Assembly (NCBI GenBank): GCA_029289235.1
Contig: JARFTZ010000056.1
Location: 37,721 to 101,720 of the forward strand
Source: Gammaproteobacteria bacterium
GTDB taxonomy: Bacteria > Pseudomonadota > Gammaproteobacteria > Burkholderiales > Rhodocyclaceae
Length of the DNA stretch: 64,000 bases
Direction of reading: 5' to 3'
Shown one piece after another: positions 5,405 through 64,000 of the stretch; position 1 is the first letter of the stretch; each line of letters opens with the position of its first letter. The position numbers and the translations under genes are program-made. The notes beneath the pieces are model-generated. The model was not told the DNA's origin, did not search any database, and saw only the letters and a program-made list of their open reading frames with translations.

Positions 5405-6508
5405 TTGAAAAAACAGTGGGTTCTGGAGTCCGTCGGCGCTGACGGCACCCGTTCCGATTTCGTCATTACGCAGCTGCCGTGCCGGATCGGGCGCAGCAAG
5501 GGGAATGACCTCGTGATTGCCAATCTCGGCCTGAGCCGGGACCAGGCGGTCATCGCCCGCGACATCACCGGCCAGCTCCGCCTCACCGACGAGAACAGCA
5601 CGAACGGAACCTTCGTCAATCGTCATCGGATCGACGGGTATTGCCTGCTCAAGGAGAACGACGTCATCCACTTCGCCAGCGCCGAGTTCAAGCTGTGTCG
5701 CCGGCTGCTGGACGAAGAAGACGCGCTCTCGTTCGACCAGATGCTGACCATGGTGATGCCGGCCGGGATGCCACTGTCCGAGCACTTTGCTCCGAACGAA
5801 GCGGAACTCGATGAATTGATCATGGGCCAGGGCATCTCCGGCGCAGCGCAACCGATCGTCGATGCCGTGTCCCGGCGTGTCGTCGCCTATGAACTGCTCG
5901 GGCGCGCCAACCATCCACGCCTGCCGGGCAGCCCGATCGAGCTTTTCGCCCTGGCGGAGGCACTCGACCGTGAAGAAGCCCTGAGCCAGGCCTTCCGCGA
6001 CTTCGGTGTCAGTCAGGCATCCCCGCGCCTGAACGGCAACACCCTGTTCATCAATGCCCACCCCAAGGAAACATTCAGCGCGGCCTTCCTCGCCTCACTG
6101 GAGCGCATCCGCAAAGCCTCGCCCACGCTCGACATCGTCGTGGAAATCCACGAATCCGCGGTCACCCGGATCGAAGAATTGCGCGAACTGGCCAACCGCC
6201 TGGAGGAACTCGGCATCCGCTTCGCCTACGACGATTTCGGCGCCGGGCAAGCACGCCTGCTCGAACTGGCCGATGTGCCGGCGCATTTCGTCAAGTTCGA
6301 CATGACGCTGATTCGCGGGCTGCACAATGCCAGCGAACGCAAGCGCAAGATCGTCCGCGACCTGGTACAGATGGTTCTCTCCATCGGATCGGTGCCGCTG
6401 GCCGAGGGCGTGGAGGACGAGGCCGAGGCGCAAGCCTGCCTCGACATGGGCTTCTGCCTGATCCAGGGCTACCTTACCGGCCGTCCGGTACCGGTAGACT
6501 CCCTGTAG
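5405..6508 (+). CDS. FHA-EAL domain protein, c-di-GMP phosphodiesterase-like
   Basis: FHA phosphothreonine-binding domain at the N-terminus (IGRSKGNDLVI, LGLSRDQAVI, STNGTFVN), then an EAL domain. The EAL signature is YELLGR rather than EAL. The Glu is retained, and so are the Asn (LFINAHP), EIHE, YDDFGAG, KFDMTLI, AEGVED and QGY elements, so c-di-GMP hydrolysis is plausible but not certain. In the FHA domain the usual SRxHA is SRDQA, so the conserved His is Gln. The TTG at 5405 is chosen because GGGAGCAGG sits just upstream and the longer ORF would put a hydrophobic stretch before the FHA fold. The gene is divergent from the CheA-like operon and its 3' end overlaps pepD by 35 bp. Confidence 0.75.
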   Translation: MKKQWVLESVGADGTRSDFVITQLPCRIGRSKGNDLVIANLGLSRDQAVIARDITGQLRLTDENSTNGTFVNRHRIDGYCLLKENDVIHFASAEFKLCRRLLDEEDALSFDQMLTMVMPAGMPLSEHFAPNEAELDELIMGQGISGAAQPIVDAVSRRVVAYELLGRANHPRLPGSPIELFALAEALDREEALSQAFRDFGVSQASPRLNGNTLFINAHPKETFSAAFLASLERIRKASPTLDIVVEIHESAVTRIEELRELANRLEELGIRFAYDDFGAGQARLLELADVPAHFVKFDMTLIRGLHNASERKRKIVRDLVQMVLSIGSVPLAEGVEDEAEAQACLDMGFCLIQGYLTGRPVPVDSL

Positions 6509-53464: not shown

Positions 53465-54610
53465 TCAGCGTTCGCTGCCGGCGCCCGATACCACGTCGAT
53501 CCATACCGCCAGCAGCAGGATCGCGCCCTTGACGATCATCTGCCAGAACGATTCGACGCCGAGCATCGACATGCCGTTGTCGAGACTGGCCATGATCAGC
53601 GCGCCGATCAGCGCGCCATAGACCGTTCCCACGCCACCGCGGCTTGACGCGCCGCCAATGAAGCAGGAAGCGATGGCGTCGAGTTCGCCGAGCGTCCCGG
53701 CGGACGGCGAACCGGCGGCGAGACGGGCGGTGGTGGTCAGCCCGGCGAAGGCGGCCATCAGCCCCATCATCCCGAACACCAGCATCTTCACCGCCCGCAC
53801 GTTGACGCCGGACAGGCGCGTCGCCTCGAGATTGGAACCAACCGAATAGATCCGCCGCCCGAACACCGTCTGGTTGGCCATGAAGCTGAAAACACCGAGG
53901 ATGACCAGCGTCACGAGGACCGGAACCGGAATCCCCTCGTACTGGTTCAGCGTATAGACGAAGCCGACGATCAGCACGCCGATGACGCCCAGCTTGCCCA
54001 GATCCTGCCAGAGCGGCGGCACGGCCAGACCGTGCTGCGCGCGTCCGGCGCGGGTCCGGAAGGTCAGGAAGGCCATCAGCGCGAACACCGCAACGCCGAG
54101 GAAATTGCCGAGCATCATCGGCAGATACGCCTGCCCGATCATGATCATCGGCTCGGACTCCAACGGCACGGTCGTCCCCTTGGTGATGCCGAGCAGAATG
54201 CCGCGGAACGCCAGGAACCCGGCCAGGCTGACGATGAACGACGGCACGCGCAGGTAGGCCACCCAATAGCCGTTGAACAGGCCGATGCCGATGCCGAGCG
54301 CGACCACGATCAGGATGATCAGCGGCATCGGCAGCTGATAGGTGTAATCGAGGATCGCCGCGATTCCACCGAGCAGGCCGAGCGATGCCCCCACGGAGAG
54401 GTCGATTTCGCCGGAGATGATGATGAACACCATGCCCGATGCCAGCATCCCGGTGATGGCCATCTGCCGCAGCAGGTTGGAGAAGTTGCGCGGCGTCAGG
54501 AACGCGCCGTCGGTCAGCTGTTCGAAGAACAGCCAGATCATCGCGATGGCGAGCAGCAGCGCGAGAATCTTGTATTGCGAAAAGAAGCGTTTGAAATCGC
54601 GGGTCGTCAT
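53465..54610 (-). CDS. xylH: Xylose ABC transporter permease
   Basis: BPD_transp_2 family permease of 381 aa with about ten helices. It has LRQMAITGMLASGMVFIIISGEIDLSVGASLGLLG, FIVSLAGFLAFRGILLGIT, YSVGSNLEATRLSGVNV and FIGGASSRGGVGTVYGALIGALIMASLDNGMSMLG. The combination with XylF- and XylG-like genes points to XylH. It lies 60 bp after xylG and 24 bp before the glucokinase gene. Confidence 0.92.
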   Translation of the reverse strand: MTTRDFKRFFSQYKILALLLAIAMIWLFFEQLTDGAFLTPRNFSNLLRQMAITGMLASGMVFIIISGEIDLSVGASLGLLGGIAAILDYTYQLPMPLIILIVVALGIGIGLFNGYWVAYLRVPSFIVSLAGFLAFRGILLGITKGTTVPLESEPMIMIGQAYLPMMLGNFLGVAVFALMAFLTFRTRAGRAQHGLAVPPLWQDLGKLGVIGVLIVGFVYTLNQYEGIPVPVLVTLVILGVFSFMANQTVFGRRIYSVGSNLEATRLSGVNVRAVKMLVFGMMGLMAAFAGLTTTARLAAGSPSAGTLGELDAIASCFIGGASSRGGVGTVYGALIGALIMASLDNGMSMLGVESFWQMIVKGAILLLAVWIDVVSGAGSER

Positions 54611-54670
54611 GTTCGTATCACCTTCCCTGTGAAGTCTTGAAGTGAGTGCGGATCCGGCGGATTGCGCGAA

Positions 54671-56209
54671 TCAGGCGGCCAGCGCCGCTGACTGACCAAG
54701 CGCGGCGGTGAGAACCTGCTCCTGGGTCAACCCGTCATTGATGAAATCGCCCCGCAACTGACCCTCGCCGATGACGAGGACGCGGTCGGAAATCCCGAGA
54801 ACCTCCGGCAGTTCCGAGCTGATCATGATGATCGACAGCCCTTGCCGGACCAGCTCGAACATCAGCTTGTAGATCTCGTACTTGGCGCCGACGTCGACGC
54901 CACGCGTCGGCTCGTCGAGAATCAGCACCTTCGGATTGGGCAGCAGCATCTTGGAAAGCACGGCTTTCTGCTGGTTGCCCCCGGAGAGTCCGCGAATCGG
55001 CAAATCCGGCGAAGCCGTCTTGATGCGCATGCGGGCAATCGATTTCTCGATCTGGCACAACTCTTTCTCGGCGTTGATCACGCCATGCCGGGCATACTCG
55101 CCGAGCACGGCCATCGTGATGTTGGCGCCGACGCCCTGCAGCGGGACGATCCCGTGGCGCTTGCGATCTTCCGGCACCAGGCAGATGCCCTGCGTCACCG
55201 CCGCGCGCGGGGAGTCGACGGAAATTCTCCGCCCATCGAGCCACAGCTCGGCACTGTACTGCCCGGGGTAGCAGCCGAAAATCGCCATCGCCAGTTCGGT
55301 GCGCCCGGCGCCGACCAACCCGGCGACGCCGAGGATCTCGCCCTTGCGCAGCTGGAAGGAAATGTTGTCGACCCGCTTGCGCCGGGGATTGTTGACGTCC
55401 AGGCAGGTCACGTTGCGCGCCTCGAAGAACACCTCGCCGACCGGATGCTCTTCGCGCGGGAACAGGTTCTTGATCTCGCGGCCGACCATCATGGTAATGA
55501 TCTCGTTGGTATCCATTCCGCTCATCGGCCGCGTGCCGACATGCGCGCCGTCGCGGATGACGCTGATCGTGTCGCAGACGGCGGCAATCTCGTCGAGCTT
55601 GTGCGAGATCATCACGCAGGCCACACCCTTGCGCTTCAAATCACGAATGATGTCGAGCAGGATTTCGGTTTCCGACTTGGTCAGCGACGATGTCGGCTCG
55701 TCGAGAATCAGCAGCCGTGCCTTCTTGTTCAACGCCTTGGCGATCTCGATCAGCTGTTGATGGCCGCCGCCGTAGTGATATACCGGCAAGGCGACGTTAA
55801 CATCCGGCATTTTCAGTTCGGCCATCAATTCCTCGGCGCGCTTGTACATCGCCGAGTAATTCATGCGTCCGCCGGGCAGCGTGATTTCGTTGCCCATGAA
55901 GATGTTCTCGGCTACCGACAGTTGCGGCACCAGCATCAGTTCCTGGTGAATGATGACGATGCCCGCCTCCTCGGTCTCGCGGATCGACGTGGCCTTGAGC
56001 TCGTGCCCATCCCAGAAAATCTGTCCTTGCCAGGTGCCGTAGGGATAGACCGCCGACAGCACCTTCATCAGCGTCGACTTGCCAGCGCCGTTCTCGCCAC
56101 ACAAGCCGACGACTTCGCCGGCACGCACCTTGAGGTCGATGCCGTCAAGCGCCTTCACGCCATTGAAGTCCTTGACGATACCTCGCATATCGAGCAGATA
56201 CTCGGTCAT
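54671..56209 (-). CDS. xylG: Xylose ABC transporter ATP-binding protein
   Basis: Double-cassette sugar ABC ATPase of 512 aa. The first domain has [15 protein letters not shown] and [15 protein letters not shown], and the second has the degenerate Walker [31 protein letters not shown] and [23 protein letters not shown] 56209 follows GGAGGATC closely. The ORF track extension into the xylF-xylG gap and xylF is rejected. A strong hairpin lies in the gap upstream. Confidence 0.94.
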
Positions 56210-56243
56210 GATCCTCCGTCCCGAAAAATGAATACGCCTGACC

Positions 56244-56269
56244 GCGGTGGCGGGAACACCCGCCACCGC
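56244..56269 (-). other. Strong hairpin in the xylF-xylG intercistronic gap
   Basis: GCGGTGGCGGG-4 nt-CCCGCCACCGC, perfect 11-bp arms, 10 bp past the xylF stop. There is no T-run. It probably protects the xylF message from 3' decay or reduces read-through, giving excess binding protein over membrane subunits. Confidence 0.65.
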
Positions 56270-56279
56270 GCCATGACGT

Positions 56280-57290
56280 TTACAGCCCGAGTTGCTCCTT
56301 GGTGTAGAAGTTGTCCTTGACCAGGATGTCCATGTTGTCCTTGGTGATGACGATCGGGTCGAGGAGGATCTGCGGTGCACCACCCTCTGCCTTCTCGGCG
56401 TTGTAGCTGACCTTCTCGCCCTTGACCAGAGCAACTGATACCTTGGCGGCTTCGGTGGCGATCAGACGCAGTGATTTATAAACGGTCATCGTCTGGGTTC
56501 CTGCAAGGATGCGCTTGCAGGCCGCGAGCTCGGCGTCCTGGCCGGTGACCGGCACCTTGCCTGCGAGTTTCTGGCCGGCCAGCGCCTGGATGATGCCGCC
56601 GGCGGTGCCGTCATTCGGGCCGAGGAAGCCGTCGATCTTGTTCTGGTGCTTCGTCAGGACGTTCTCGGCGATGGACAGCGCGTTCGACGGCAACCAGTCC
56701 TTGACCGCCTGCTCGCCGAGAATCTTGATCTTGCCGCTCTTGATCGCCGGATCCATCGCCTTCATCGCCCCGGCCTTGAACAACTTGGCGTTGTTGTCAC
56801 CGGGATCTCCGGAAAGCACATAAACACCGCCGCCGTTCGGCATGGCCTTCATCAGCGCCTCGCCCTGCATGAAGCCGACGCGCTCGTTATCAAACGAAAT
56901 ATAGACATCGATGTTCCGGCTCTTGATCAGGCGATCGTAGGAGACGACCTTGATCCCGGCTTTCTTGGCTTCCCGGAGCACGTTGGACAACGTGGACTGG
57001 TCCTTCGGCACGATGACCAGCGCATCGACCTTCTGCGAAATCAGGTTCTCGATCTGCGATACCTGCTTGGCGGTATCGCCATCCGCCGACTGCACATTGA
57101 CTTCGGCCCCCAACTGCTTGGCCGCCTCGATGAAATAGTCGCGATCGCGGGCCCAGCGTTCGACGCGTAAATCGTCGATCGAGAAACCGATGACGGGTTT
57201 TTCCTTGGACGCCATGGCCGGCATGGAAACGCAAGCGGCCGCGGCGACGAGAACTGACAAAAGGGTACGGCGGACTGTGAAACGGCTCAT
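56280..57290 (-). CDS. xylF: D-xylose periplasmic binding protein
   Basis: Sugar-binding protein of 336 aa. The signal peptide ends CVSMPAMA, then comes [23 protein letters not shown] (XylF-specific start of lobe 1), [17 protein letters not shown] and [25 protein letters not shown]. coli XylF binds xylose, and related proteins also take glucose. It is first of the structural genes, with a long (about 270 nt) leader that carries a small ORF. AAGGAGAATTCAG precedes the ATG. Confidence 0.93.
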
Positions 57291-57726: not shown

Positions 57727-58926
57727 TCAGCGATCACACAGACGATAGTCCATCGGCCGGGTCAGGACGTGCTTGACCAGCGCCGCCGCGCCCATGCCGA
57801 TCGAACGCGAGCCAAAACGCGCCAGCCTCAACTCGGGCAATGGCAGCGAGCAATCGCGCGAAAACCCTTCAAGACAGGAAAAAGCCGCGTCAAACAATGG
57901 CGGTCCGAGGTCGCACAAGGGACCGCCGATGACGACTCGCCCCGGGTTGAACGACGTCCACAGATTCTGGATCAACACCCCGAGGTAATGCCCGGCACGC
58001 CGTACCGAGAGATGGGCGGATTCATCGTTTCGATCGAGCAACTGACGGATGGTTTCCACTGGAAGCAGATCGTCGGCTCGCCCGGAAATCCGCGTACTGA
58101 CTGCGCGCTGCCCGATAAAGGCCTCGGCACACCCGCGCCGTCCACATGAGCACACGGGCCCTTCGACCTGCAGGATCGAATGCCCGACCTCCCCGGCAAA
58201 ACCGTCGGCGCCAAGAAACAGGCGCCCGCGCACAACCACTCCGGCACCGACGCCGACGCCGAGTCCGAGGTAAATCAGCGGATCGGGCAACGGCGCCTCG
58301 CCAAACTCGTACTCGCCGAGCACCGCCACGTCATAGTCGTTCTGCACCAGAATCGGCAGGTCGGCAACGCCACAGGCCGCCAGTTCGGCACTGAACACCG
58401 CATGAAAAGAATAATCCCGCCACCCCAGGTTCGGGGCCAACTTGACCGTTCCCTGATGATCGAGCACCGCGCCTGGAACCCCCACGCCAACCCCGAGCAG
58501 CCAACGCCCCGCTGAACGCGCTTTGGCCACGACATCCGCCACCAGGACGGCAAGACGTGGCAGAACATCCTCCGGCCGCCTGCCGGGGAGCGGCTCCGAC
58601 GCAGCTTCGAGCACCTCCCCGGTCAGCGAAACCGCCAGGACGCTCAAGCCCTCCAGGCTCACATCGGCGCCGATCATCGCCAGGCGCCGGCCGTCCAGAC
58701 CGAGCGGTATCGGCCGCCTCCCGATCGCCCCGGTTGCCTGCACATCCGACTCGCACAACCAGCCGGAATCGATCAGATCCTGTACCAGCAGGCCGACAGT
58801 CGATTTCGTCAGCCCGGTCGCCTTGGCCAGGTCGGCACGCGACAACCCCGCCCCCTGCTGGACCGCACGTACGATGGCCATCCTGTTGATCTCACGCAAC
58901 AGACTCTGATCGCCGCTGATTGTCAT
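57727..58926 (-). CDS. xylR: ROK family transcriptional repressor (XylR-like)
   Basis: Regulator of 399 aa with an N-terminal winged helix (INRMAIVRAVQQGAGLSRADLAKATGLTKSTVGLLVQDLIDSGWL) and a ROK sugar-binding domain. The ROK zinc motif is GHSILQVEGPVCSCGRRGCAEAFIG (C-x-C-x4-C with upstream His). The kinase phosphate-loop region is changed (GADVSLEGLSVLAVSLTG), as in ROK repressors. ATG 58926 is chosen; the ORF track extension runs into the divergent EAL-HDOD upstream region. It is transcribed in the same direction as the xyl operon. A dyad TTGT-CGA-ACAA lies 35 bp upstream of its ATG and may be an autoregulatory site. Confidence 0.85.
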   Translation of the reverse strand: MTISGDQSLLREINRMAIVRAVQQGAGLSRADLAKATGLTKSTVGLLVQDLIDSGWLCESDVQATGAIGRRPIPLGLDGRRLAMIGADVSLEGLSVLAVSLTGEVLEAASEPLPGRRPEDVLPRLAVLVADVVAKARSAGRWLLGVGVGVPGAVLDHQGTVKLAPNLGWRDYSFHAVFSAELAACGVADLPILVQNDYDVAVLGEYEFGEAPLPDPLIYLGLGVGVGAGVVVRGRLFLGADGFAGEVGHSILQVEGPVCSCGRRGCAEAFIGQRAVSTRISGRADDLLPVETIRQLLDRNDESAHLSVRRAGHYLGVLIQNLWTSFNPGRVVIGGPLCDLGPPLFDAAFSCLEGFSRDCSLPLPELRLARFGSRSIGMGAAALVKHVLTRPMDYRLCDR

Positions 58927-59113
58927 GACTGCCCACCCCGAGCACGGTAATTGGTAAGTTTGTCGAACAATTATCCTCACTCGCGTGACAACAATCAACC
59001 GGGAGAGGCGCAGAGCAGATTGAGTCGGGTCGTTTCCCGCCAGCGATGCTAAGATGAAAAAAACAAAAATCACGGCGGCCACCCCCTCTCGCGGTCGCCA
59101 TGGAGGAGTCGCC

Positions 59114-60382
59114 ATGCCCGATAACGATCTCAAGGACGTGTTTCTTGGCCGCCAGCCGATTCTCGATCGCAAGCAGCAGCTGTTCGCCTACGAGCTGCTC
59201 TTTCGCAGCGGCAGCGCCGAAAGCGGCAATTTCGCCAGCTTCATCGACGGCAATCAGGCCACGGCCACCGTTATCATCAATGCGTTCACAGAGTTCTCCG
59301 TCGCCAATGCGCTCGGGCCGTACCAGGGGTTCATCAAGGTCGACCACGGTCTGCTCTTCAGCGACCTGATCCACGCGCTGCCGCCGCATACGGTGGTGCT
59401 CGAGATTCTCGATACGGTGGCCCAGACGCCGGAAATGATCGAGCGCTGCGAACAGTTGCGTCAGGCGGGTTACGTGCTGGCCATACGCATGCGCCCCGAG
59501 TCGCTGGATACGGAGAAGGCGCTGCTGCGCATCGCCGAGGTCATCAAGGTCGACATCAGCCGCGTCGAGCCGGAACGCCTGAAGCAACTGGCCCCTGCGC
59601 TGAAGCCGCTGAAAAAGACCCTGCTCGCCGAGAAAGTCGAGAGCGACGCGCAGATGCGCTTGTGCCACGAACTCGGCTTCGATCTGTTTCAGGGCTACTA
59701 TTTCGCCCGCCCGACGGTCATCCAGGGGAAACGGCTGCAGAGCTCGGAAGTGGCGCTGCTGCGCCTGCTCGGACTGATCAGCCAGGACGCCGACACCACG
59801 GAGATCGAGAAAGTATTCAAACAGGAGCCGGTACTCACGCTCAACCTGCTGCGCCTGACCAACTCCGCGGCGGCCGGCATGCCGACGAAAATCACCTCGT
59901 TGCGCCATGCCATCACCCTGCTCGGCCGCCGCCAGCTGTTGCGCTGGCTGCAGCTTCTGCTTTACAGCGGTGCTGCGAACGCAACCAGCGCGGTCAATCC
60001 CCTGCTGCAACTCGCGGCGACGCGCGGCCGCCTGATGGAGTTGCTGCTCGACCGCACGCCGGACGTCAAGGAAGGCGGACGCGACCTGATCGACCAGGCA
60101 TTCATGGTCGGCATCCTGTCGCTGATGCCGACGCTGATCGGCAGCGGCATGAGCGAGATCCTCGCCCAGCTGCCGCTGGCGCGGCCGGTACTCGACGCGC
60201 TCGGGGAACGCCGCGGCATACTCGGTGATCTGCTGAGCCTGATCGAGTCACTCGAAAACGAGGAAAGCGAAAAGGCATCCACCGCGCTCACCCGCCTGCC
60301 GGAGATCGACGCCACCTACGCCAACAGCTGTCTGACGCGTGCGCTGACCTGGGCCAACAACCTGGCGCGCGAGTCGTCATAA
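59114..60382 (+). CDS. EAL-HDOD domain signalling protein (copy 1)
   Basis: YuxH-type protein of 422 aa: degenerate EAL domain (about 1-210) followed by an HDOD domain (about 210-400). EAL landmarks are FLGRQPILDRKQQLFAYELLFRSG, VVLEILDTV and LLAEKVES. The DDFG position reads AIRMRPESLDT, so the metal-binding Asp pair is lost and c-di-GMP hydrolysis is unlikely. The HDOD part has LLRLTNSAAAGMPTKITSLRHAITLLGRRQLLRW. ATG 59114 follows GGAGGAG. It is first of three tandem paralogues in the same direction. Confidence 0.85.
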   Translation: MPDNDLKDVFLGRQPILDRKQQLFAYELLFRSGSAESGNFASFIDGNQATATVIINAFTEFSVANALGPYQGFIKVDHGLLFSDLIHALPPHTVVLEILDTVAQTPEMIERCEQLRQAGYVLAIRMRPESLDTEKALLRIAEVIKVDISRVEPERLKQLAPALKPLKKTLLAEKVESDAQMRLCHELGFDLFQGYYFARPTVIQGKRLQSSEVALLRLLGLISQDADTTEIEKVFKQEPVLTLNLLRLTNSAAAGMPTKITSLRHAITLLGRRQLLRWLQLLLYSGAANATSAVNPLLQLAATRGRLMELLLDRTPDVKEGGRDLIDQAFMVGILSLMPTLIGSGMSEILAQLPLARPVLDALGERRGILGDLLSLIESLENEESEKASTALTRLPEIDATYANSCLTRALTWANNLARESS

Positions 60383-60459
60383 CCCGCCACCAGTCGCGCG
60401 GGGCGCCCGTTCGCCTATAGAATGCATTTTTGATCCATGACCGGGGCGCTCTCGCCGAC

Positions 60460-61728
60460 ATGTCCGAATCTCACCATTCCAATATTTTTCTCGGCCGCCA
60501 GCCGATTCTCGGGCGCGAACAACAGCTGCTGGCCTACGAACTGCTCTTTCGCGACGGCCCGATCCTCACCGCCAACCGCGCAGAAATCGTCGATCCGTCA
60601 CAAGCCACCGCCACGGTCATTGCCAACGCGTTCACCGAACTTTCCGCCAACGAAGCGCTCGGCCCCTACCGCGGCTACATCAACGTCGATCAGGAATTCC
60701 TGTTCAACGACCTGATCGAGGCATTGCCGCCCAAAGCCGTCGTATTGGAAATACTGGAAACAGTGGAGCCCACCGCCGAAGTGATCGCGCGCTGCCGGCA
60801 ACTGCGCGACAAGGGGTTTTCGCTGGCCATCGACGACGTCATCGAACTCACCGACGCCGCCCGCCCACTGCTCGAACTGGCAGAGATCATCAAGGTTGAC
60901 GTGCTCGGCCTCGACGCGGAAAAGCTCACCACGCTGGTCCAGCGCCTCAAGCCATTCGGCAAGAAACTGCTCGCCGAGAAAGTCGAATCGGCGGAGCAGG
61001 TGGAACTGTGCAAGCGCCTCGGTTTCGAACTGTTCCAGGGCTACTACTTTGCCAAACCGGCGATCATCGTCGGCAAGAAACTCAATCCGTCACAACTGGC
61101 GCTGCTCCGCCTTCTGTCGCTCGTCCTGCAGGACGCCGACACCAGCCAGATCGAGAATGCCTTCAAGGTCGAACCGGGGCTGACGGTCAACATGCTGCGG
61201 CTGACCAATTCGGTGAGCAACGGACTGACCACGCACATCACCTCGCTGCGCCACGCCATCACCATCCTCGGTCGCCGCCAGCTGCAACGCTGGTTGCAAC
61301 TGCTGATCTACACCAATCCGAAGGGCGGAGGACCGGGTGACAACCCGCTGCTGCAACTCGCCGCGACCCGGGGACGTCTGCTGGAACTGCTGTCCGATCG
61401 GGTCGTGCCGCGCAACCGGGAATTTGCCGACCAGGGTTTCATGGTCGGCATCATGTCGCTGATGCCGGCACTGCTCGGCGTCACGATGGAGGAAATCCTC
61501 ACGCACCTGCCGGTGGCGCAGCGCGTCAGGCTGGCACTCGTCGAGCAGGCCGGCCAGCACGGCCAGCTGCTGCAACTGGCCATCGCCACCGAACAAACCA
61601 ATCCGGAGGTAATCGAAGAAGCGCTGCAGCGCGTGCCGGCCATCGGGCTCGATTTCCTCAACGATTGTCTCTCCCAGGCGCTGTTCTGGGCCAACAACCT
61701 CGGGCGCGAAAAGGCCGACGACCTCTGA
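60460..61728 (+). CDS. EAL-HDOD domain signalling protein (copy 2)
   Basis: Protein of 422 aa, closely similar to copy 1: FLGRQPILGREQQLLAYELLFRDG, VVLEILETVEPTAEVIARCRQLR and HDOD segment LLRLTNSVSNGLTTHITSLRHAITILGRRQLQRW. At the DDFG position it keeps an Asp pair (LAIDDVIELTD) but not the FG, so it is the least degenerate of the three. ATG 60460 gives the same N-terminal length as copy 1; an upstream TTG at 60430 is less likely. It is separated from copy 1 by about 77 bp and from copy 3 by 2 bp. Confidence 0.85.
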   Translation: MSESHHSNIFLGRQPILGREQQLLAYELLFRDGPILTANRAEIVDPSQATATVIANAFTELSANEALGPYRGYINVDQEFLFNDLIEALPPKAVVLEILETVEPTAEVIARCRQLRDKGFSLAIDDVIELTDAARPLLELAEIIKVDVLGLDAEKLTTLVQRLKPFGKKLLAEKVESAEQVELCKRLGFELFQGYYFAKPAIIVGKKLNPSQLALLRLLSLVLQDADTSQIENAFKVEPGLTVNMLRLTNSVSNGLTTHITSLRHAITILGRRQLQRWLQLLIYTNPKGGGPGDNPLLQLAATRGRLLELLSDRVVPRNREFADQGFMVGIMSLMPALLGVTMEEILTHLPVAQRVRLALVEQAGQHGQLLQLAIATEQTNPEVIEEALQRVPAIGLDFLNDCLSQALFWANNLGREKADDL

Positions 61729-61730
61729 GC

Positions 61731-62996
61731 ATGAGCGATCCAGCCCTCGACGACACCTACCTCAGCCGTCATCCAGTCCTCGACCTGCAGCACGAACTGT
61801 TTGGTTACGAGCTGCGGCTGCAGACGTCCGGAGACGCGCTTTCAGTCCGGAAAGACAAGGAAGACGCTGCCCTGCTGATTTGCTCGGCGTATGCCGAACT
61901 CGGCATACGCCGAGCACTGGGACGCAAACGGGCATTTCTCCGCATCGACCAGGGCTTCCTGCACGACGACGCCATCGAAGCCCTGCCGGCCGACTGCGTG
62001 GTACTGCAGATCGCGCCAGACCGCGTGCCCGACGCGACCACGCTGGAACGCTGCCGCGCCCTGCGCGACCGGCGCTATTCGCTGGCGCTCGCCGACTACA
62101 CCGGGCTCGACGAACGCAGTGCGCCGCTGCTGACGATGGTCGACCTGATCGGAATCGACATCCGTGACAGGAGCACACAACAACTCCTCGCCCTCGCCGG
62201 TCCGCTCAAGCACCTGCCACTCAAACTGCTGGCCCAGCGCGTGGAGACACAGGAAGCTTTCACACGCAGCCGCGACGCGGGCTTCCAGCTGTTCCAGGGG
62301 AATTACTTCGCCCATCCGGAAGTTGTCAGCGGACGCCGCCTGTCGGCCTCGCAAACGACCCTCATCGAGCTGATCAACCTCGCCAACCGCGACGCCGACA
62401 CGGTGAAGCTGGAAGAAGGCATCAAGCACGACGCCGCGTTGACGGTTAACTTGCTGAGCATCGTCAATTCGGTAGGCTTCGGCATGACCCGGCGCATCAG
62501 TTCGCTGCGCCACGCCATCACGATCCTCGGTCGGCGCCAGCTGCAACGCTGGCTGCAGCTGCTGCTGATGACGCCGGCCGGCAAGGCGCCGGACCCGAGC
62601 CGCATTCCGCTGCTCCAGGTCGCCGCCTTGCGCGGGCGGATGCTTGAACTGCTCGTCGGCCACCTGCGCCCGCGCGACGCCACCCTGGCCGGGCAGGCTT
62701 TCATCACCGGCATCATGTCGATGATGCCTGCGGCGCTTGGCCTGCCGATGGATGAAATCTTCGAGCAGATCGCCCTTGAGCACGAAATCATCGCCGCCTT
62801 GCAGTCCTACCAGGGAATCCTCGGCAAGATGCTGGCGCTGATCGAATGCTACGATGCGGAAGACATCCACGGCTGCGACGAGATTCTGGCCGGTTTCCTC
62901 GGCACCGGGCTGGATCGCCACATGCTTAACACTTGCCTGACGGATTCACTGCGCTGGATCAACGGCAACAACGAAATTGACCAACCACCTGACTGA
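61731..62996 (+). CDS. EAL-HDOD domain signalling protein (copy 3, most divergent)
   Basis: Protein of 421 aa. The EAL half is strongly degenerate (YLSRHPVLDLQHELFGYELRLQTSGD; DDFG position LALADYTGLDERS), while the HDOD half stays close to the others (LLSIVNSVGFGMTRRISSLRHAITILGRRQLQRWLQLLL). ATG 61731 lies 2 bp after the stop of copy 2, so the two are co-translated. HDOD proteins act in signal transduction through protein-protein contacts. Divergence suggests a separated partner or role. Confidence 0.83.
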   Translation: MSDPALDDTYLSRHPVLDLQHELFGYELRLQTSGDALSVRKDKEDAALLICSAYAELGIRRALGRKRAFLRIDQGFLHDDAIEALPADCVVLQIAPDRVPDATTLERCRALRDRRYSLALADYTGLDERSAPLLTMVDLIGIDIRDRSTQQLLALAGPLKHLPLKLLAQRVETQEAFTRSRDAGFQLFQGNYFAHPEVVSGRRLSASQTTLIELINLANRDADTVKLEEGIKHDAALTVNLLSIVNSVGFGMTRRISSLRHAITILGRRQLQRWLQLLLMTPAGKAPDPSRIPLLQVAALRGRMLELLVGHLRPRDATLAGQAFITGIMSMMPAALGLPMDEIFEQIALEHEIIAALQSYQGILGKMLALIECYDAEDIHGCDEILAGFLGTGLDRHMLNTCLTDSLRWINGNNEIDQPPD

Positions 62997-63002
62997 AACG
63001 CC

Positions 63003-64000
63003 ATGCAGAACATACTGATCACCGGAGGTGCCGGCTACATAGGATCTCATACGTGCGTCGAACTGCTGGCGGCCGGCTACAACCTGGTCGTCATCGACAA
63101 TTTCTCCAACAGCAAGCCGGACGTCCTGCGCCGGGTGGAGCAGATCAGCGGCCGGACGCTCACCTTCGAGGAAGTCGACATCCGCGACCGCGGTGCCTTG
63201 CGCGACGTCTTCCGGCACCACGCCATCGACGCGGTCATCCATTTCGCCGGGCTCAAGGCCGTCGGCGAATCCGTTTCGCAACCGCTGCGCTACTACGACA
63301 ACAACATCTCCGGCAGCGTCGCGCTGTTCGAGGTGATGGCCGAATCCGGCGTCAAGACGCTGGTCTTCTCCTCCTCGGCGACAGTCTACGGCGACCCGCA
63401 CAGCGTCCCGATCCGCGAGGATTTCCCGCTATCCGCAACCAATCCGTACGGCCGCTCGAAGCTGATGCTGGAGGAGATCCTGCGCGACCTGTCGCGCTCC
63501 GATGAAACCTGGCACATCGCCCTGCTGCGCTACTTCAACCCGGTCGGCGCGCATGAATCCGGGATCATCGGCGAAGACCCGAACGGCATCCCGAACAACC
63601 TGATGCCCTTCATCACCCAGGTCGCAGTCGGCAAGCTGCCGGAGCTTTCCGTCTTCGGCAACGACTACCCGACGCCCGACGGCACCGGCGTGCGCGACTA
63701 CATCCATGTCGTCGACCTGGCGCGCGGCCACCTCGCGGCACTCAAGGCGATCGAAGGAAAATCCGGTGTAACGACGGTCAATCTCGGCACCGGCCAGGGC
63801 TACAGCGTTCTCGATGTCGTCAGCGCCTTCGAGAAGGCCAGCGGCCGCCCGGTCCCCTACCGGATCGTCGATCGCCGACCGGGCGACGTCGCCCAGTGTT
63901 TCGCCGACCCGGCCCTGGCCCACGAACTGCTCGGCTGGAAAGCGGAGAAGGATCTCGATGCCATGTGCCGCGATTCCTGGCGCTGGCAGGAGTGGGCCGC
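63003..64000 (+). CDS. galE: UDP-glucose 4-epimerase (3' end outside window)
   Basis: Short-chain dehydrogenase/reductase, 332 codons visible of about 340. The NAD motif is [20 protein letters not shown], the catalytic Ser is in [12 protein letters not shown], and the Tyr-x3-Lys is in [12 protein letters not shown]. Substrate-binding stretches are [30 protein letters not shown] and [17 protein letters not shown]. It interconverts UDP-glucose and UDP-galactose for envelope polysaccharides. It starts 6 bp after copy 3 of the EAL-HDOD genes. The ORF track misses it because no stop occurs before base 64000. Confidence 0.96.

Follow-up and report, generated by a model that had tools for sequence, protein, structure and literature searches.

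The window, i.e. the whole stretch of 64,000 nucleotides analyzed here, carried three head-to-tail genes, named A, B, and C, whose products each had an N-terminal EAL and a C-terminal HDOD domain (Table 1). The initial annotation had described three full-length genes of 422, 422, and 421 aa followed by galE after 6 bp, and the ORFs were confirmed as such. The strings it had listed (AIRMRPE, AIDDVIE, ALADYTG, ITSLRHAIT or ISSLRHAIT, and GRRQL) were likewise all found in A-C. The ATG of C lay 2 bp beyond the stop codon of B. The array was bordered by a sugar ABC transporter and a ROK regulator on one side and by galE on the other; the context of the transporter was common to genome G018 and, in part, to G027, G006, and G016. 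The transporter may be of the xylose type (XylFGH). A consensus scan of the A-B gap for promoters and terminators and a search with Rfam yielded nothing useful. Outside the array, a separate EAL-domain stretch at 5846-6493 matched B weakly, with 32% identity. Two further EAL-HDOD-like proteins of the same genome (L019, G000:C60:13388-14419; L020, G000:C61:9830-10987) had EAL halves that were wrecked or unrecognizable, and Pfam found HDOD alone in them. The genome therefore held five EAL-HDOD-like proteins, with the catalytic set kept in B only.

Table 1. Features of the EAL-HDOD array and its surroundings, in positions of the window
Feature	Position	Strand	Basis or remark
Gene A: EAL-HDOD pseudo-phosphodiesterase, 422 aa	59114..60382	+	Pfam, motif reading, AlphaFold model
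A-B intergenic gap, 77 bp	60383..60459	+	Consensus scan: no promoter/terminator match
Gene B: EAL-HDOD, catalytic residues all kept, predicted c-di-GMP phosphodiesterase, 422 aa	60460..61728	+	Pfam, residue alignment
Gene C: EAL-HDOD with eroded EAL and conserved HDOD core, 421 aa	61731..62996	+	Pfam, alignment, AlphaFold model
galE-like NAD-dependent epimerase, 6 bp past C, open at window end	63003..63998	+	
Divergent neighbor: HTH + ROK family regulator	57727..59172	-	Longest ORF; true start probably internal
Sugar ABC transporter: periplasmic binding protein, ATPase, permease	53465..57290	-	

The HDOD domain scored above the Pfam cut-off at the C-terminus of all three proteins. The EAL domain scored 48.2 bits in A, 63.8 in B, and 30.9 in C (cut-off 31.3), the marginally low match of C being backed by an AlphaFold model that matched EAL structures. 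The EAL fold was kept in the models of both A (pLDDT 84.7) and C (86.2), with that of A showing an EAL barrel plus an all-helical HDOD half, and the structure matches of both included FimX and LapD (4ag0, 3hv9, and 3pju among the fold matches). Overall identity was 57% between A and B and 39% between A and C. Between A and B, the EAL half, HDOD half, and HDOD core were 57%, 57%, and 67% identical, and C resembled A and B at 35-36%, 42-43%, and 56-59% over the same regions. The statement in the initial annotation that the HDOD halves remain alike thus held for the HDOD core, but not for the A-B HDOD half as a whole, which was no more similar than the EAL half.

We then compared the active sites. 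B possessed E27, R31, N75, E97, D125, D126, K145, D147, E173, E176, and Q193; from E97 onward these could be matched one by one to residues of EAL enzymes with solved structures (DosP, BlrP1, and a V. cholerae EAL protein), the alignment being less certain at the positions of E27 and N75. The residues for metal binding and catalysis (E of ExL, N, E, DD, K, D, E, and Q) formed a complete set in B, but not in A or C. Among orthologs in the genus, B was intact in 11 of 17 and degenerate in six genomes, whereas a fully intact set was found in 0/16 orthologs of A and 0/15 of C. The AIDDVIE string of B had been counted as a loss at the DDFG position. This reading was not borne out, in that B kept all catalytic residues and its DDVI was usual for the family (LDDV in 43 and LDDF in 23 of the non-A, non-C proteins), the canonical DDFGTGYSS loop being absent from B and nearly the whole EAL-HDOD family. 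As the canonical FGTGYSS is missing from its post-DD loop, B could nevertheless be only weakly active.

In A, residue 75 was changed from N to K and DD read RM, and both changes were found in 16/16 orthologs of the genus. Metal M1 of EAL enzymes with solved structures is coordinated by the Asn together with the first Asp, and M2 by the second Asp (PMC5301497), so the loss in A was specific to metal ligands. A retained E27-R31 (ExLxR) and the positions equivalent to E97, K145, D147, E173, E176, and Q193 of B. These eight other active-site residues (Glu and Arg of ExLxR, LEI Glu, K, D, both Glu, and Gln) were invariant in all 16 orthologs, 14 of which had the full ExLxR and the remaining two ExFxR. 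The C protein of the window was changed at ExLxR, N, the LEI Glu, the first Asp of DD, the K of KxD, and the AE Glu, and ExLxR, N, and an intact DD were found in 0/15 of its orthologs in the genus. The "graded loss" of the EAL active site proposed for the three genes was therefore real for A and C, but with B intact the order of loss was B < A < C and not the gene order.

The age of the copies was examined on a tree of 111 proteins, with AU tests on 36 rows. The C proteins of the genus, together with the C copies of three other genera (g41, g56, and g77), formed one 100/100 clade outside all B, and A of the genus formed a 100/100 clade with A of g41. The initial annotation had proposed a local triplication, and a recent one within this lineage would fit the adjacency and equal length of the genes and the 57% identity of A and B. 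It is contradicted by the grouping of C with the C of other genera and of A with that of g41, and by the AU tests, which rejected joint monophyly of the A, B, and C of the genus (p = 1.3e-5; with g41 included, p = 4.4e-6) as well as an independent duplication in g77 (p = 6.8e-6); we consider it highly implausible. The phylogeny suggested as a check, on the expectation that the copies are each other's closest relatives, thus went against that expectation for C, since an A-B-C clade was rejected. The trees and AU tests instead argued for two or more duplications that differ in age and whose products stayed in tandem. By this phylogeny the A/B split is younger than C, which is placed as an old paralog common to other Rhodocyclaceae genera; the A/B node is placed approximately, since the AU test did not reject the union of g1+g41 A with B (p = 0.053). 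Two of the three C copies in g77 were changed at DD alone (to SR), with the other residues kept, which suggests that DD went first in the C lineage, before the binding motif. Among named records, a Propionivibrio MAG and the Accumulibacter-labelled MAG UBA704 (88% for B) came closest, which places the genome in Rhodocyclaceae.

To assess constraint, dN/dS was calculated by NG86 between the window and G018. The values for EAL and HDOD were 0.12 and 0.13 in A, 0.08 and 0.09 in B, and 0.30 and 0.18 in C, these ratios being rough since dS was 0.6-1.0, near saturation; in the two species pairs compared so far, dN/dS was well under 1. Mean ortholog identity of the EAL domain was 71.6% for A and 70.8% for intact B. 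Since the dead EAL of A had a dN/dS like that of its HDOD and an ortholog identity like that of intact B, it is evidently maintained. The EAL of C, judged by dN/dS, is loosening while its HDOD stays held. Both A and C are of long inheritance. One might instead regard A and C as decaying redundant duplicates, with B, where intact, the only copy that matters. The many lineage-specific partial sets in the genus, the breakage of A into several frames in G016, and the faster evolution of the EAL of C than of its HDOD would all fit such decay. However, the EAL of A was about as constrained as that of intact B, the N to K change and the loss of DD were fixed in 16/16 orthologs while eight active-site residues stayed unchanged, the HDOD half of C was constrained, and A or C persisted where B was dead or not found. 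We therefore judge decay an unlikely account of the array.

The retained ExLxR of A, together with its strong constraint, fits a c-di-GMP receptor or scaffold. In dead EAL domains such as those of FimX and LapD, it is the ExLxR motif that decides c-di-GMP binding (PMC10333796), and the pattern of a degenerate-EAL receptor, with catalytic residues lost and ExLxR kept, was seen in A and not in C. The earlier suggestion that the divergent copies may be c-di-GMP receptors or scaffolds was accordingly plausible for A, but unlikely for C, which has no ExLxR. The dead EALs could also serve as scaffolds that bind protein or RNA without binding c-di-GMP, in the manner of YdiV or E. coli CsrD. This would suit C, its ExLxR being lost, and E. 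coli CsrD (ExMxR) is a documented non-binder (PMC10333796); for A it is at odds with the retention of ExLxR and pocket residues in nearly all orthologs. As an explanation of both dead copies we find it unlikely.

We further surveyed how the copies are distributed. The A-B-C order was found in eight genomes of the genus (the window counted) and in a second genus (L196), and since the same order recurs it is not due to chance. Other genomes of the genus carried A+B, B+C, A+C, or A, B, or C alone, and B was not found at the locus in genomes showing only A, only C, or A+C, although some contigs in both cases end close by. With B degenerate in some genomes and not found in others, an intact enzyme is not required for A or C to persist. 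In G016, gene A (L075:4709-6001) was split over three frames, either by a recent break or by assembly error. Among the 29 arrays (window included), 16 had one intact copy, 12 had none, and 1 had two, so that at most one copy was intact in 28/29. By comparison, the catalytic set was complete at 93/103 standalone EAL-HDOD loci; of the ten others, five were A-only or C-only loci of this genus, and two were cut or gapped in the alignment. The tree required a minimum of 9 changes in catalytic state. Judged by counts, arrays and standalone loci differed strongly; a phylogenetically paired comparison of array with catalytic loss pointed the same way, with 2.3 pairs for and 0.0 against, but this small test was not significant. 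In the two-copy arrays of genus g45 (L213-L215), copy 1 had GG for DD, and copy 2 kept DD with the KxD Asp changed to Cys or Val, so that both copies look impaired, each differently. A distinct subfamily of EAL-HDOD proteins from other orders (L090-L092) lay beside upstream genes that by reading only resemble those of CheA/CheW-type chemotaxis.

The standalone genes also bear on whether any of the three proteins hydrolyzes c-di-GMP. If B too were a receptor, its loop lacking FGTGYSS would be accounted for, the post-DD loop being non-canonical in B and nearly the entire family. Against this, retention of the full metal and catalytic set in 93/103 standalone relatives is hard to explain without catalysis, and ZpdA, which has the same architecture, is active (PMC12607878). 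The prospect that none of A-C is an enzyme is thus a slim one.

The initial annotation had taken galE next to the array as a hint of a link with envelope polysaccharide, and had called for a survey of three-copy arrays upstream of galE. Apart from the window, galE adjoined the locus in no more than 6 genomes, each belonging to this genus, and it is probably an incidental neighbor. The usual order in Rhodocyclaceae and some neighbors was a waaF-like heptosyltransferase, an algC-like phosphomannomutase/phosphoglucomutase, and EAL-HDOD. The EAL-HDOD gene came a median 9 bp after the preceding gene (60 loci measured), and an alaS-like gene lay downstream on the opposite strand in 52 loci. algC adjoined EAL-HDOD in 59/131 loci, and waaF was kept upstream in seven genomes of this genus. 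No algC-like gene was detected between waaF and EAL-HDOD at L060, L062, L063, L064, L066, and L074 of this genus, and the genome of the window had no close algC (best 32%). Downstream of the array in G006 lay genes for a sugar transferase, an outer-membrane barrel, and a GNVR-domain (Wzz-like) protein. From these gene orders, waaF-algC-EAL-HDOD is the ancestral arrangement. The envelope-sugar association is then older than galE, and the direction of the earlier guess was reasonable even though the gene it rested on is local. The association with envelope-sugar genes is recurrent across the loci surveyed, and a causal link is only putative.

Together, these results led us to propose that A-C are a long-inherited tandem set comprising a phosphodiesterase (B), a c-di-GMP-binding pseudoenzyme (A), and a non-binding protein acting through HDOD (C), a reading to which we give about an even chance. 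B, a predicted c-di-GMP phosphodiesterase, would set the local c-di-GMP level. A, a descendant without a metal site, most likely binds c-di-GMP metal-free and without cleavage, like FimX and LapD. C, the oldest paralog, would have lost DD first and its binding motif later, and probably acts via HDOD without binding or cleaving c-di-GMP. In the simplest joint mechanism, A would read the c-di-GMP set by B, and A and C would tune B or shared partners. Mixed EAL dimers of A, B, and C, and an effect of the set on envelope polysaccharide, are speculative. A broader proposal, held more tentatively and at well below even chances, is that enzyme B, metal-free receptor A (with the Asn to Lys change of a metal ligand), and non-binding regulator C form a co-inherited module, perhaps with mixed dimers, and that tandem EAL-HDOD duplication in Rhodocyclaceae repeatedly yields such sets.

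It has been named as an open question how proteins of c-di-GMP turnover turn into receptors and later into non-binders, and why they do so (PMC10333796). At this locus one genome holds three adjacent stages, with orthologs in more than 20 species, and since intermediates such as the g77 C copies with DD alone lost are visible, the phylogeny can tell in which order the steps occurred. A-B-C is thus a natural series for studying the change from enzyme to receptor. The findings further connect the EAL-HDOD family, on which few studies exist, with an algC/waaF envelope-sugar locus across Rhodocyclaceae.

Among known systems, FimX and LapD resemble A in having a dead EAL with ExLxR kept. They have different domain partners and are not known to carry HDOD or to adjoin an intact paralog in an array. 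CsrD and YdiV resemble C in having an EAL fold without a working binding motif; the comparison covered that fold, and their architecture differs. The HDOD proteins SadB, GsmR, and I2285, with reported effects on motility, flagella, or biofilm (PMC6543031, PMC9040570), have HDOD in common with A-C, but EAL is missing from the same protein. V. cholerae ZpdA (VC0515), CdgJ, and VC1851 are EAL-HDOD phosphodiesterases with the same N-terminal EAL and C-terminal HDOD architecture as A-C, and ZpdA, like B, has conserved metal-binding residues. In contrast to A-C, they are described as separate genes and not as a tandem array with pseudoenzymes (PMC12607878), the likeness being drawn from published description. 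No description of tandem EAL-HDOD arrays was found in the literature searched, whose coverage extended to papers outside subscription. The EAL-HDOD architecture (ZpdA) and degenerate EAL receptors were therefore known already, and what is new here is the co-inherited array of a predicted enzyme with pseudoenzymes.
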